From: Cognatitamlana onchidii
Lineage (GTDB): Bacteria; Bacteroidota; Bacteroidia; Flavobacteriales; Flavobacteriaceae
Length of the DNA stretch: 64,000 nt
NCBI RefSeq assembly: GCF_004804355.1
Contig: NZ_SRWZ01000007.1
Span: 62,001 to 126,000 of the forward strand
Direction: 5' to 3'
Shown here: piece after piece, positions 3,606 to 51,693 of the stretch
How the letters are laid out: the number at the start of each line of letters is the position of its first letter
Position numbering within the stretch: position 1 is the stretch's first letter
The notes under the pieces: generated by a model
Told to the model about the DNA's origin: nothing
Database searches by the model: none
Seen by the model: the letters and a program-made list of their open reading frames with translations, nothing else
Program-made: the position numbers and the translations under genes

Positions 3606-3635
3606 AACGCAACCTTTGGAGGTCATTTACATCTT
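3606..3635 (+). promoter_or_regulatory. Candidate alternative-sigma (ECF-type) promoter, copy 1
   Basis: AACGCAACCTTT (3606-3617), 11 bases, ACATCTT (3629-3635). The same two blocks with identical spacing occur at 49468-49497 before the ECF sigma operon, and with small changes on the minus strand at 48315-48287. The GCAACC block and a CATCT block about 15 bases apart look like the -35 (AAC-type) and -10 elements of ECF sigma factors. The transcript start would fall near 3641-3643, just before the lipoprotein start. That the ECF factor of this window reads it is my inference. Confidence 0.55.
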
Positions 3636-3652
3636 AAAACAATATGGTCGGA

Positions 3653-4051
3653 ATGAAAAAAACCTATACACTTATTATTATTCTTGTCTTTTTTGCAATC
3701 ATATCCTTTACGTGTAATGATAGTGACGACATGTCTTCTCCGCAACAAGATGAACTGGCAGAACTAATAACTTTAAAAACTGAAATTATATCTCTTGCAA
3801 ATAAATCCATTTGCAACGAAACTACGGAATGTAAATTTATTGGTTTAGGCGCAAAACCCTGTGGCGGGCCATTGGAATATTTAGTGTACTCCACTTCCAT
3901 AAACACCACCAAATTAACAGCTTTAGTAAAAGACTACAATAAAAAAAATGAGGCTTATAACACCAAATGGAATATCGCATCAGATTGTGCGGTTACAACT
4001 CCTCCAACAAGCTTAAATTGTAAAAATAACACTTGTATTGCTGAGTATTAA
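3653..4051 (+). CDS. Small cysteine-rich lipoprotein, unknown function
   Basis: About 132 residues. The N-terminus MKKTYTLIIILVFFAIISFTC has a positive start, a hydrophobic core and a lipobox-like SFTC, so it is probably a lipoprotein anchored in the envelope. The mature part holds six further cysteines (CNETTEC, PCGG, SDC, NCKNNTC), which may form disulfides. I do not recognise a named family. ATG 3653 is preferred over in-frame ATG 3644 because it begins a canonical signal sequence and because the predicted transcript start lies at about 3641-3643. It is preceded by the AACGCAACC promoter motif, suggesting control by an alternative sigma factor, perhaps as part of an envelope response. Confidence 0.75.
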   Translation: MKKTYTLIIILVFFAIISFTCNDSDDMSSPQQDELAELITLKTEIISLANKSICNETTECKFIGLGAKPCGGPLEYLVYSTSINTTKLTALVKDYNKKNEAYNTKWNIASDCAVTTPPTSLNCKNNTCIAEY

Positions 4052-47002: not shown

Positions 47003-48079
47003 TTACCTTAGTTTATCTGTTTTTAACGTTTCGAAGATATTCCGTAAATCCTTTTTATAAGGTAAATGATCTGCTCTTCCCTTTTTAAAGATATCATTGC
47101 TATTTCCCTGACCTTTTCTTAAAGCCTTTTGTTCTTCATAAGGTAAAGCATGAATCTCTTTACAGGCTGTTGAACAGCAGTTGTTCATTTCCTCCTTACA
47201 CGCTTCGCATTGTATGAATAGCAAATGGCACGCATCGTTGGCACAATTGGTATGGACATCGGCAGGATTACCGCACTGATGACAACAGGCAATAACATCC
47301 TCACTTATTTTTTCTGCTCTTCGCTCATCAAAAACAAAGTTTTTCCCGATAAACTTGTTCTCAAGCTCCTGTTCTTTCACCTGTCTGGTATACTCAATTA
47401 TCCCTCCTTCAAGCTGAAATACATTTTTAAAGCCTTTATACTTAAAATAAGCACTTGCCTTTTCACAACGGATTCCCCCAGTACAATACATAACCAAATT
47501 CTTGTCCTCTTTATAGGATTTTAGATCGTCTCCAATAATATCGAGAGATTCACGAAATGTATCAACATCGGGGGTGATCGCATTTTTAAAATGCCCTATT
47601 TCACTTTCGTAGTGATTGCGCATATCTACCAATACCGTCTTTTCGTCTTCTATAAGTTCATTAAAACGTTCGGCACCAACATGCACCCCTTTATTGGTGA
47701 CATCGAAGGAATCGTCGTTTAAACCATCAGCCACAATTTTATGACGTACTTTAACTTTCAATTTCAAAAAAGACATGTTGTCTTGCTCTACAGCCACATT
47801 CAGTCTAATATCTTTTAAAAATGTAATGGTATCTAAATGGGATTTAAAGGCATTAAATTTATCAGCGGGCAAGGAAAGTTGACCATTTATACCTTCTGTT
47901 GCAACATAAATACGACCTAGAACATCTAAATCATTCCAAACTACAAATAATTGATCTCTAAATTCTTGAGGGTTCTCAATTTTGGCATATTGATAGAAAG
48001 ACAAGGTTAATCGATCTTTTCCTGCTTTCTCGATTAACTCAGCTCTTTCTTTAGCACTTAATTTATTGTACAGTTGCAT
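47003..48079 (-). CDS. trhO: tRNA uridine(34) hydroxylase TrhO (YceA, rhodanese family)
   Basis: 358 residues: an acylphosphatase-like N-terminus, a rhodanese domain with active Cys199 in NLVMYCTGGIRCEKASAYF, and a Cys-rich C-terminus (CCHQCGNPADVHTNCANDACHLLF, CEACKEEMNNCC). TrhO catalyses O2-dependent 5-hydroxylation of U34 in tRNA, the first step to cmo5U/mo5U. First gene of the trhO-trhP-ferredoxin operon, so both known ho5U routes are encoded side by side. Confidence 0.9.
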   Translation of the reverse strand: MQLYNKLSAKERAELIEKAGKDRLTLSFYQYAKIENPQEFRDQLFVVWNDLDVLGRIYVATEGINGQLSLPADKFNAFKSHLDTITFLKDIRLNVAVEQDNMSFLKLKVKVRHKIVADGLNDDSFDVTNKGVHVGAERFNELIEDEKTVLVDMRNHYESEIGHFKNAITPDVDTFRESLDIIGDDLKSYKEDKNLVMYCTGGIRCEKASAYFKYKGFKNVFQLEGGIIEYTRQVKEQELENKFIGKNFVFDERRAEKISEDVIACCHQCGNPADVHTNCANDACHLLFIQCEACKEEMNNCCSTACKEIHALPYEEQKALRKGQGNSNDIFKKGRADHLPYKKDLRNIFETLKTDKLR

Positions 48080-48103: not shown

Positions 48104-48145
48104 CCGCATACATGCGGAGTTAGAAATATTTGAGGCGCAAAAATA
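48104..48145 (-). promoter_or_regulatory. trhO promoter and leader hairpin
   Basis: A minus-strand -7 box TATTTTTG lies at 48138-48145, giving a leader of about 50 nt before the trhO ATG (48079). Inside the leader, CCGCAT at 48104-48109 and ATGCGG at 48112-48117 form an inverted repeat with only 2 bases between, best read as a DNA operator. Confidence 0.45.
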
Positions 48146-48179
48146 CAACTTTAAAAGCAAGTTAAGCCGAATCACAAAA

Positions 48180-48217
48180 AAAAAGGCATTTAAAACTAAA
48201 TATTTAAATGCCTTTTT
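48180..48217. terminator. Orphan terminator between recA and trhO
   Basis: 15-bp perfect stem (48180-48194 with 48203-48217), 8-nt loop. T tract of ten on the minus strand and five on the plus strand. Best explained as the end of the predicted minus-strand small RNA. Confidence 0.85.
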
Positions 48218-48235
48218 GAGTTAGTTTGAGTTAGT
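48216..48235. repeat. Perfect tandem 10-bp repeat
   Basis: TTGAGTTAGT twice in a row on the plus strand (ACTAACTCAA in the predicted RNA), located just before the terminator stem. In a regulatory RNA a doubled single-stranded motif could be a base-pairing seed. Confidence 0.55.
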
Positions 48236-48251
48236 CAATAGGATTCTTTGA

Positions 48252-48259
48252 TAAATTTG
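48252..48259 (+). promoter_or_regulatory. Possible recA -7 box
   Basis: TAAATTTG matches TAnnTTTG, with TTTG 23 bases further upstream (48225-48228). It would give a recA leader of about 160 nt with the palindrome 48274-48289 just inside it. Low confidence because other A/T-rich segments nearer recA could serve. Confidence 0.3.
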
Positions 48260-48273
48260 ATAGCAAAAATTTC

Positions 48274-48289
48274 CTTACTTATAAGTAAG
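48274..48289. promoter_or_regulatory. 16-bp perfect palindrome at the predicted RNA start
   Basis: CTTACTTATAAGTAAG equals its own reverse complement. It overlaps the -10 element and start point of the predicted small RNA and lies upstream of recA, so a bound repressor would affect the RNA and perhaps recA. I cannot say whether it is a LexA-type box, as Bacteroidota SOS boxes are poorly defined. Confidence 0.5.
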
Positions 48290-48315
48290 ATACTCGACAA
48301 ACAAAAAGGTTGCGT
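48287..48315 (-). promoter_or_regulatory. Candidate alternative-sigma (ECF-type) promoter, copy 2
   Basis: On the minus strand: ACGCAACCTTT (48315-48305), 11 bases, GTATCTT (48293-48287). Matches the motif at 3606-3635 and 49468-49497 in the first block (11 of 11 bases) and in 5 of 7 bases of the second, with identical spacing. Confidence 0.55.
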
Positions 48316-48427: not shown

Positions 48428-49429
48428 ATGAGCACTGAAAAAGACGCTAAATTAAAGGCACTTAAACTAACATTAGACAAATTAGATAAGGCTTACGGAA
48501 AAGGAACCGTAATGAAGATGAGTGATGCCGCCATACAAGATGTTGATGCCATTTCATCTGGGTCTTTAGGATTAGACATTGCATTAGGCGTTGGAGGGTA
48601 TCCTAGAGGGCGAGTAATTGAAATATATGGTCCAGAATCATCGGGAAAAACAACGCTAACATTACACGCTATTGCAGAAGCTCAAAAATCTGGAGGCATT
48701 GCAGCATTTATTGATGCTGAACATGCATTCGACAGGTTCTATGCAGAAAAACTAGGTGTAGATATTGATAATCTCATTATTTCTCAGCCAGACAATGGTG
48801 AGCAAGCCTTAGAAATTGCCGATAATTTAATTCGTTCGGGGGCGATTGATATTGTTGTTGTAGATTCTGTGGCAGCACTTACTCCCAAAAGTGAAATTGA
48901 AGGAGAAATGGGCGATTCTAAAATGGGATTACACGCACGTTTAATGTCGCAAGCGCTTAGAAAACTAACCTCGTCTATTAGTAAAACAAATTGTACGGTT
49001 ATTTTCATTAACCAATTACGTGAAAAAATTGGTGTTATGTTTGGAAACCCAGAAACCACAACTGGGGGTAATGCTCTTAAATTTTATGCTTCGGTAAGAT
49101 TAGACATAAGAAGGTCTACGCAAATAAAAGAATCGGACGGTACAGTAGCAGGTAATAAAACGCGCGTAAAAGTGGTAAAAAATAAGGTAGCACCACCTTT
49201 TAAAATGGCCGAATTTGATATTATGTACGGAGAAGGCGTTTCTAAAGTAGGTGAAATTTTAGACTTAGCCGTTGAATACGACATTGTAAAAAAGAGTGGG
49301 TCTTGGTTTAGTTATGATGAGACTAAATTAGGACAGGGGCGAGATGCTGTTAAAGCACTCATAAAAGACAACCCTGAACTCATGGACGAACTTGAAACCA
49401 AAGTAAGGACCCTAGTCGCAGAAAAATAA
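48428..49429 (+). CDS. recA: Recombinase A
   Basis: DNA strand-exchange ATPase of homologous recombination and the SOS co-protease. 333 residues. Walker A GPESSGKT (about 69-76), the Walker B region [14 protein letters not shown], and [21 protein letters not shown] (loop L2 region with the conserved PETTTGG). The C-terminus is short, as usual in Bacteroidota. Monocistronic: the upstream region is unusually rich in signals and a clean terminator follows. Confidence 0.98.
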
Positions 49430-49467: not shown

Positions 49468-49497
49468 AACGCAACCTTTTAACCTAATTGACATCTT
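49468..49497 (+). promoter_or_regulatory. Candidate alternative-sigma (ECF-type) promoter, copy 3, before the ECF operon
   Basis: AACGCAACCTTT (49468-49479), 11 bases, ACATCTT (49491-49497), identical in both blocks and spacing to 3606-3635. Downstream is the ECF sigma gene (GTG 49682), giving a long leader of about 175 nt. A promoter of the factor's own type here would make the operon autoregulated, as is common for ECF sigma factors. The rest of the 185-base leader holds nothing else I recognise. Confidence 0.55.
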
Positions 49498-49681: not shown

Positions 49682-50230
49682 GTGAGTTTAGATCAACTCA
49701 TAAAAAATTGTAAAAAGCAAAATACTAAAGCGCAAAGCGAACTGTACCATCTGTTTGCCAGTAAATTGTTTGCCATATGCTTAAAGTATTCTAGAAACCG
49801 CAGTGAAGCTGAAGACAATCTGCAGGATGCTTTTATCACAATTTTTAAAAAAATTGAGCAATATAAGCACAAAGGATCCTTTGAGGGCTGGATAAAACGA
49901 ATAACGGTTAACACTGTTTTACAGCGTTATCGAAATGAAAAGGTGTTTGAGCTTATAAATGAACATATTATTGAAGACCCTTTAGTAGAAATTGATGAGC
50001 ACCGTATTTCCATTGATTATTTATTAGGGATTATTCAAGAATTACCCGATAGATACAGATTGGTTTTTAACCTTTATGTGTTAGACGGTTATTCTCATAA
50101 AGAGATAGCAAGTATGCTAGACATAAATATAGGTACTTCAAAATCAAATTTAGCAAGGGCTAGACAAATTTTGAGACAAACTATAGAACAATACAGAATT
50201 AAAGAACAAGAACACACGCAATCCTTATAA
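49682..50230 (+). CDS. ECF sigma factor (sigma-70 family)
   Basis: 182 residues with sigma region 2 (about 10-75: KAQSELYHLFASKLFAICLKYSRNRSEAEDNLQDAFITIFKKIEQYKHKGSFEGWIKRI) and region 4 (about 115-170: LPDRYRLVFNLYVLDGYSHKEIASMLDINIGTSKSNLARARQIL). No region 1 or 3, so group 4. The start is GTG 49682; an in-frame stop codon lies immediately before it. One-base overlap with the next gene, which encodes a membrane protein with anti-sigma-like layout. Probable target: the AACGCAACC motif promoters. Confidence 0.9.
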   Translation: MSLDQLIKNCKKQNTKAQSELYHLFASKLFAICLKYSRNRSEAEDNLQDAFITIFKKIEQYKHKGSFEGWIKRITVNTVLQRYRNEKVFELINEHIIEDPLVEIDEHRISIDYLLGIIQELPDRYRLVFNLYVLDGYSHKEIASMLDINIGTSKSNLARARQILRQTIEQYRIKEQEHTQSL

Positions 50231-51693
50231 TGCGCGAAAAGAAACATATAGATCGAATTTTTCAGGAGAGCTTTAAAGATTTTGAGGCCATACCTAGTGA
50301 TTCCGTATGGAATACTATTGAAGAGCGTCTTGAAAAAAAGAACAGGAAGCGCCGTATAATCCCTTTATGGTGGCGCTATACCGGGGTTGCAGCTTTACTA
50401 CTCTTGTTTTTATCATTAGGGGGTCTGTACCTACAGAATAATCAAACAACCCCAAATATTCAAGTTGTCGATACCGAATCGCAAGAGTTAAACAATCTAC
50501 AAAATTTAAACAAAAGTTCTACTAGTGTTGTAAATAATGAGGTAATTGATAATGCGTCATCTAATTCTAACACGAACTCAGAAAACACCTTGTTTCAACA
50601 AAAACAGGAAGTTCAGCATGGTTTTACGAGCTCAAATGGTCAAACAATTATAACCAGTCCTAATTCAAAAGTGAACCAGCGCAACCAGTTATTATCCAAT
50701 CAACAAGAGCATTCTAATAAGGTAGTAGCTTCTTCTAATATTTCTGATAAACATCAAAAGATTGCCAGTACAGAAACAAATAAAAAAGAACAAAATGCGC
50801 AACTTGAGAGCCCTATAATTGATAAAGAAGACTTTAACAATTTAGCCTCTAAACAAAATAGTGTAGCGCTAAGTACGGTTCAAGAAAAAAACGCCAACAA
50901 TCTTCGCAAAACAAATATCAATGAAAACACGTTAACCATTGAAGAAGCCATTGACAAAAACAAAGATATAACACCTAGTAACATCCCTGAAAACAGATGG
51001 AGCGTTGCCCCTAATATTGCGCCTGTTTATTTCAATACTTTAAGCCAAGGTTCTACTATAGATGGGCAATTTAATAATAATGCTAAAACTGGCGATGTAA
51101 ACATGAGTTATGGGATTGCTACCAGTTATGCAATAAACAAAAAACTAAAAATACGCTCTGGTATTAACAAAGTTAATTTGGGCTACAACACAAACGATAT
51201 TATCGTTTATCAATCAAATGGTGTTGGTAGTAGCGCTCTAAGAAATGTTAACGAATCTAGTACGAGCTTGGCCGTTGCAAGCGATCAATCCATAGAAAGT
51301 AATAGCTCATTAAATACTGTAATTAGCACTAATTCTTCAATAAATCAATCGTTTGGATATATAGAAGTACCTTTAGAGGTTCAATATACTTTTGTCGATA
51401 AAAGAGTAGGTATTAACGTTATTGGCGGGTTTAGTTCCTTTTTCTTAGAGAGTAATGAAATATATTCTGAAATAGATAATGGCACTAGATCTTATCTGGG
51501 AGAAGCCAATAATATAAATGATATTAGTTACAGTGCCAATGTAGGCCTCGGTTTAAACTATAGATTTTCAAAGAAAATTGATTTGAACTTAGAGCCTACT
51601 TTTAAATATCAATTTAACACATTTAGCAATACATCGGGTAATTTCACACCGTTCTTTATTGGTGTTTACACTGGGTTTGCAATAAAGTTCTAG
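50230..51693 (+). CDS. Membrane protein with anti-sigma-like N-terminus and outer-membrane barrel domain
   Basis: 487 residues. A charged cytoplasmic N-terminus (1-48, DRIFQESFKDFEAIPSDSVWNTIEERL) and one TM helix (about 49-68) are followed by a long Asn/Gln/Ser-rich linker (about 70-250). The C-terminal part (about 255-487) shows beta-barrel strands such as YGIATSYAINKKLKIRSGINKV and FGYIEVPLEVQYTF, ending FFIGVYTGFAIKF. It starts inside the sigma factor stop (TAATG). The layout suggests an anti-sigma or signal-transducing partner spanning the periplasm, but no zinc-binding anti-sigma motif is seen. Confidence 0.75.
   Translation: MREKKHIDRIFQESFKDFEAIPSDSVWNTIEERLEKKNRKRRIIPLWWRYTGVAALLLLFLSLGGLYLQNNQTTPNIQVVDTESQELNNLQNLNKSSTSVVNNEVIDNASSNSNTNSENTLFQQKQEVQHGFTSSNGQTIITSPNSKVNQRNQLLSNQQEHSNKVVASSNISDKHQKIASTETNKKEQNAQLESPIIDKEDFNNLASKQNSVALSTVQEKNANNLRKTNINENTLTIEEAIDKNKDITPSNIPENRWSVAPNIAPVYFNTLSQGSTIDGQFNNNAKTGDVNMSYGIATSYAINKKLKIRSGINKVNLGYNTNDIIVYQSNGVGSSALRNVNESSTSLAVASDQSIESNSSLNTVISTNSSINQSFGYIEVPLEVQYTFVDKRVGINVIGGFSSFFLESNEIYSEIDNGTRSYLGEANNINDISYSANVGLGLNYRFSKKIDLNLEPTFKYQFNTFSNTSGNFTPFFIGVYTGFAIKF

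Follow-up and report, generated by a model that had tools for sequence, protein, structure and literature searches.

The window analysed here, a 64,000-nucleotide stretch of the Cognatitamlana onchidii genome, carries recA (48428..49429, plus strand) and, on the minus strand, the UPF0176/rhodanese gene trhO (47003..48079), both assigned by Pfam. Between them, direct reading of the minus strand from 48315 to 48176 reveals a promoter (ACGCAACC-N16-ATCT), then a stretch of ~105 nt that contains no usable ORF, and finally a terminator. The promoter is of the ECF type, with the -35 element ACGCAACC at 48308..48315 and the -10 element TATCTT, for which the family consensus is CATCTA, at 48287..48292. 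The original prediction had recognised this promoter, the sequence of which reads CACGCAACC and not AACGCAACC, and had also given the length of the RNA as ~105 nt, which agrees with the distance from the predicted start near 48280 (placed to within 5 nt by analogy with ECF promoters) to the T-run; the predicted transcript would thus occupy 48176..48280. As had been stated, no ATG frame of note exists in this interval, the sole ATG sitting within the terminator. The latter is a stem-loop of 15 pairs with an 8-nt loop (48180..48217, minus strand), in which only 3 of the pairs are G-C; its T-run, previously counted as ten residues, comprises nine (48184-48176), five of them inside the stem. Next to the stem, the tandem pair of ACTAACTCAA (48216..48235, minus strand) is exact, with copies at 48235-48226 and 48225-48216. 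The terminator ends ~95 nt before the start of trhO, which has a promoter of its own, marked by TATTTTTG at 48138..48145 (minus strand), a sigma-A type -7 box of the consensus TAnnTTTG (PMC9723704).

Taken singly, the promoter, the terminator and the 16-bp perfect palindrome of the region are little above chance, and it is the comparison with relatives that lifts the locus well above it. Terminator-like sites number 4 against 2.9 expected, and exact 2x10 tandems occur in two places against 0.2 expected. The predicted RNA folds with an MFE z of -3.1, most of which is accounted for by the terminator. The palindrome CTTACTTATAAGTAAG (48274..48289, both strands) is present as described and overlaps the end of the -10 element and the predicted start; since the window holds 3 such palindromes against 2.1 +/- 1.5 expected, it stands at chance level. 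Its proposed role as a repressor site is not supported, and the dyad is not conserved either: arm pairing scores 3.86 among 58 relatives, versus 3.77 +/- 0.11 for arms swapped between species (103/500 as high).

The conservation of the unit, which many marine members of the family carry beside recA, has been followed through 80 Flavobacteriaceae trhO loci, with counts limited to those in which recA precedes trhO with room for a sigma gene. The promoter is found in the recA-trhO intergenic region of 62/66 loci that carry an ECF gene and in 0/6 of those that do not (Fisher p 1.3e-6; the independent losses on the tree are two only). Across the 62 aligned sites CGCAACC is invariant, CATCTA follows at nearly fixed spacing, and the T-C-T of the -10 element is kept in 59; nearly all of these loci have the same CGCAACC motif 5' of the sigma gene. 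Most of the relatives' units terminate in a hairpin of altered yet paired stem (GCACTTT/AAAGTGC, GTCCTTT/AAAGGAC, GCCCTTT/AAAGGGC), as read by a simple terminator scan that chose another hairpin in a few loci, e.g., L024, L055, L060 and L064. Among 249 genomes of the family, the pattern of promoter plus GCTAT yields 91 forward sites against 2 in reversed sequence. The best match outside the window's own genome lies in another genus (G017; E 2.3e-15) and extends exactly from the -35 element to the terminator. The original prediction had been staked on promoter and terminator conservation in relatives with the recA-trhO order intact, and both are conserved there. On the other hand, conservation is poor across the central part of the RNA, and the 5' box of the window has diverged further than most. 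The unit is also dispensable, because it is absent from the near relatives L038 and L029; in the closest relative by trhO (L021), the contig ends 231 bases before trhO and the unit is not in sight.

Beyond recA lies the gene for an ECF sigma factor (49682..50230, plus strand; Pfam Sigma70_r2 and r4_2, TIGR02937), a predicted stress sigma factor, the operon of which is preceded by a matching ECF promoter (49469..49496, plus strand) of the same motif as the RNA unit. It is followed by a membrane protein with a C-terminal outer-membrane beta-barrel domain (50230..51693, plus strand; OMP_b-brl_2, 1.8e-6), probably the anti-sigma partner, as judged from its position in the operon and an NCBIfam hint of only E 0.19. 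The pattern ACGCAACCTTT-N12-16-ATCT has 3 sites in the 3.4-Mb genome and 0 in the reversed control, and all 3 fall in the window, at the RNA unit, the ECF sigma gene and a lipoprotein-like ORF. It is very probable that the minus-strand interval is a conserved ECF-driven transcription unit. A literature search for the promoter motif returned nothing pertinent by title and abstract.

What the original prediction had overlooked is that in many relatives this unit is a small-protein gene. At ~30 recA-trhO loci it encodes a peptide of 27-30 aa, MKFFKKIIFNNALGVSVAIHINSNCKADGG and its kin, which ends in NCKADGG. M1, C25 and the final GG are invariant in the family, the latter by construction, as the peptide search demanded it. 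The peptide is under purifying selection in these relatives, with a pS of 0.47 against a pN of 0.17 and pS exceeding pN in 99% of pairs. It occurs in ~50/249 genomes of the family, nearly always in single copy, and the 30 best matches all lie beside recA, with the promoter motif 53-281 nt upstream. Neither Pfam nor NCBIfam contains a match; the peptide represents an unrecorded 30-aa protein family. Members with the ending CKADGG or a variant of it are seen beside recA at L012, L042, L075 and L152-L181. Several coding loci (L039, L040, L043, L066) have an insertion that puts the start codon of the peptide inside an inverted repeat, ATCTG...CAGAT(G), an arrangement reminiscent of gated translation.

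In contrast to these relatives, a search of the window's genome for the peptide found none. Alignment with two coding loci (L012/L075) and with the half-decayed L053 places a small-ORF remnant, ATC AAA TTT ATC AAA GAA TCC TAT TGA, at 48235..48261 on the minus strand, where the coding start ATG AAA TTC TTT AAA has become ATC AAA TTT ATC AAA, after which come a stop and CTAACTC. This heptamer, which is matched by the first copy of the tandem ACTAACTCAA, follows the peptide's stop codon in the coding forms. Most of the ORF has been deleted, and the start codon has been lost (ATG to ATC) within a 5' box (48256..48274, minus strand) that reads GGAAATTTTTGCTATCAAA here and GGGAAATNTTGCTATGAAA in its family form and is found in coding and non-coding relatives alike. 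By alignment, then, the predicted RNA of the window is a derivative of a small-protein mRNA that has lost its ORF. The copy in G017 is likewise a short deletion derivative without a start codon, L053 is an intermediate in which ORF remnants are still readable, and the frames of both L045 and L053 are breaking. On a tree of recA plus trhO, parsimony places at least six changes between the coding and non-coding states among promoter-bearing loci; several forks of this tree are weakly supported and parsimony cannot separate gain from loss, but the decayed remnants in L045, L053 and L067 speak for loss. Among the non-coding loci, 34 from many genera retain promoter and terminator. Ten non-coding Winogradskyella share ~0.88 pairwise identity over the promoter and first ~30 nt, as against 0.1-0.6 in the former ORF region, a pattern that argues for a function in the RNA 5' end after the loss of the peptide.

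Promoter, terminator, the link to the sigma gene, the relatives' peptide and its loss here are thus established at the level of sequence comparison. The explanation we lean towards, with somewhat better than even confidence once a regulatory function is included, is that the ~105-nt RNA is an independent, sigma-ECF-dependent sRNA descended from a small-protein mRNA. The neighbouring ECF sigma factor would read the promoter of the unit, and the RNA would be made from the minus strand towards trhO and stopped at the intrinsic terminator. In this lineage the unit has lost most of the ORF by deletion, and the start codon as well, but has kept promoter, 5' box and terminator. What is left would still function as an sRNA, the likeliest mechanism being base pairing through the unstructured 5' portion of the RNA (GGAAAUUUUUGCUAUCAAA) or through the ACUAACUCAA repeats. 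The earlier claim of an independent small RNA accordingly stands as regards the minus-strand unit, with its conserved promoter and terminator, and is amended as regards its origin.

MicA and RybB are sigma-E dependent sRNAs of enterobacteria, and such sRNAs act by pairing. The present unit resembles them in being a short, independent unit without an ORF that ends at an intrinsic terminator and has, as far as sequence can tell, an ECF-type promoter shared with a sigma gene; in addition, the sigma operon here includes a membrane/outer-membrane protein. It differs from them in that there is no sequence or Rfam relationship, in that the RNA is encoded next to its own sigma gene, across recA, and in its descent from a protein-coding gene, while outer-membrane protein targeting is only a candidate here. 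A search of Rfam release 15 gave no covariance-model match above the gathering score (the best sub-threshold match reaches 23.6 bits vs 59), and matches at a lax threshold were set aside as noise. The relatives' unit resembles dual-function sRNAs such as SgrS/SgrT in that a small conserved ORF sits on one short transcript with a terminator, and this ORF can be missing from a unit that is otherwise retained. A selected small ORF within the transcript is present in ~30 relatives and missing from the window; peptide and RNA are unrelated to SgrS/SgrT, and the regulatory action is putative here. Within the family, a transcriptome study of F. psychrophilum describes 85 new RNAs, among them Rfp18, which is tied to metalloproteases; these small RNAs, compared by description only, share with the present one a conservation beyond the species (PMC9723704). 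The window RNA could conceivably be one of these RNAs, Rfp18 included.

The main rival is that the small-protein gene is dead in this lineage, its promoter and terminator merely lingering and its RNA being made without function. Such a relic would account for the deletion derivatives without a start codon in the window and G017, for the breaking frames and for the loss of the unit in two relatives, and it fits the target searches, which found none. Exact complements of TTGAGTTAGT occur in 14 places vs 7 for the reversed sequence, two of them being the locus itself, and those of TTTSATAGCAA in 15 places vs 7; in neither set does one lie clearly at a 5' end. One TTGAGTTAGT complement lies 48 nt before hemE, within the preceding gene. 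The relatives' recA-ECF operons were also searched for complement sites, and none is conserved. A relic is nevertheless rather unlikely in our view: promoter and terminator have survived in many non-coding loci and genera, and it is mainly the conserved 5' end of the non-coding Winogradskyella, beside a decaying ORF region, that leads us to prefer an sRNA.

It has also to be considered that the ECF promoter feeds trhO and that the hairpin is an attenuator or partial stop in the trhO 5' region. The unit does lie on the same strand as trhO and close upstream of it, and in F. psychrophilum trhO (YceA) is itself described downstream of an ECF-type promoter, SM6, whose motif has a CGT -10 box as against CATCTA here (PMC9723704). 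However, the window has a TAnnTTTG promoter that separates trhO from the terminator, as is also seen in relatives, no alternative anti-terminator structure is seen, and three loci (L033, L060, L092) keep the unit with trhO 1.7-2.4 kb away, which makes such a cis-acting leader quite improbable. Least credible of all, to the point of being nearly negligible, is a very short peptide translated in the window from a non-ATG start. An 11-codon TTG frame (MLSNLSKNPID) is indeed present, but it is not kept in G017 (TTG CTA TAA) or in other non-coding relatives, and it bears no resemblance to the family peptide.

A broader reading can be advanced tentatively, and with less than even confidence: at one ECF-controlled locus, a 30-aa gene may have been deprived of its ORF on several occasions and have turned into a functional sRNA, with the function that persists residing in the conserved 5' end. 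Were this messenger-to-regulator series real, its coding, decaying and non-coding stages could be compared between sister genera. Knowledge of sRNAs and ECF regulons in the Flavobacteriaceae is sparse. The locus adds an ECF promoter motif that is both conserved and anchored by synteny (ACGCAACCTTTTT-N10-CATCTA), the new peptide family and a site at which ORF loss and RNA survival can be tested across sister genera.

Several further observations concern the unit and its putative regulon. In one clade (L068, L076, L078, L079, L085, L089) the ECF gene beside recA has been lost, and the RNA unit has been lost too. In the Muricauda/Maribacter group (L077, L080, L087, L093, L094, L098), the order seen in the window's relatives is inverted, with ACTAACTC close to the 5' end and the GCTATGAAA box close to the terminator. 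The third copy of the ECF promoter (window 3607-4051, plus strand) stands 10 bases before the 135-aa lipoprotein-like ORF at 3644, a probable member of the ECF regulon. A looser promoter pattern adds two sites, one at a 145-aa lipoprotein-like ORF and the other at the 28-codon ORF MKLLLIVSVLIIVNLLLLTFSVNKKTEP. The latter (L114, ~1501-1680; G000:C4:94223) encodes a single-span membrane product, has an ECF promoter on its 5' side and a terminator, and may be read as a second small protein of the ECF regulon.
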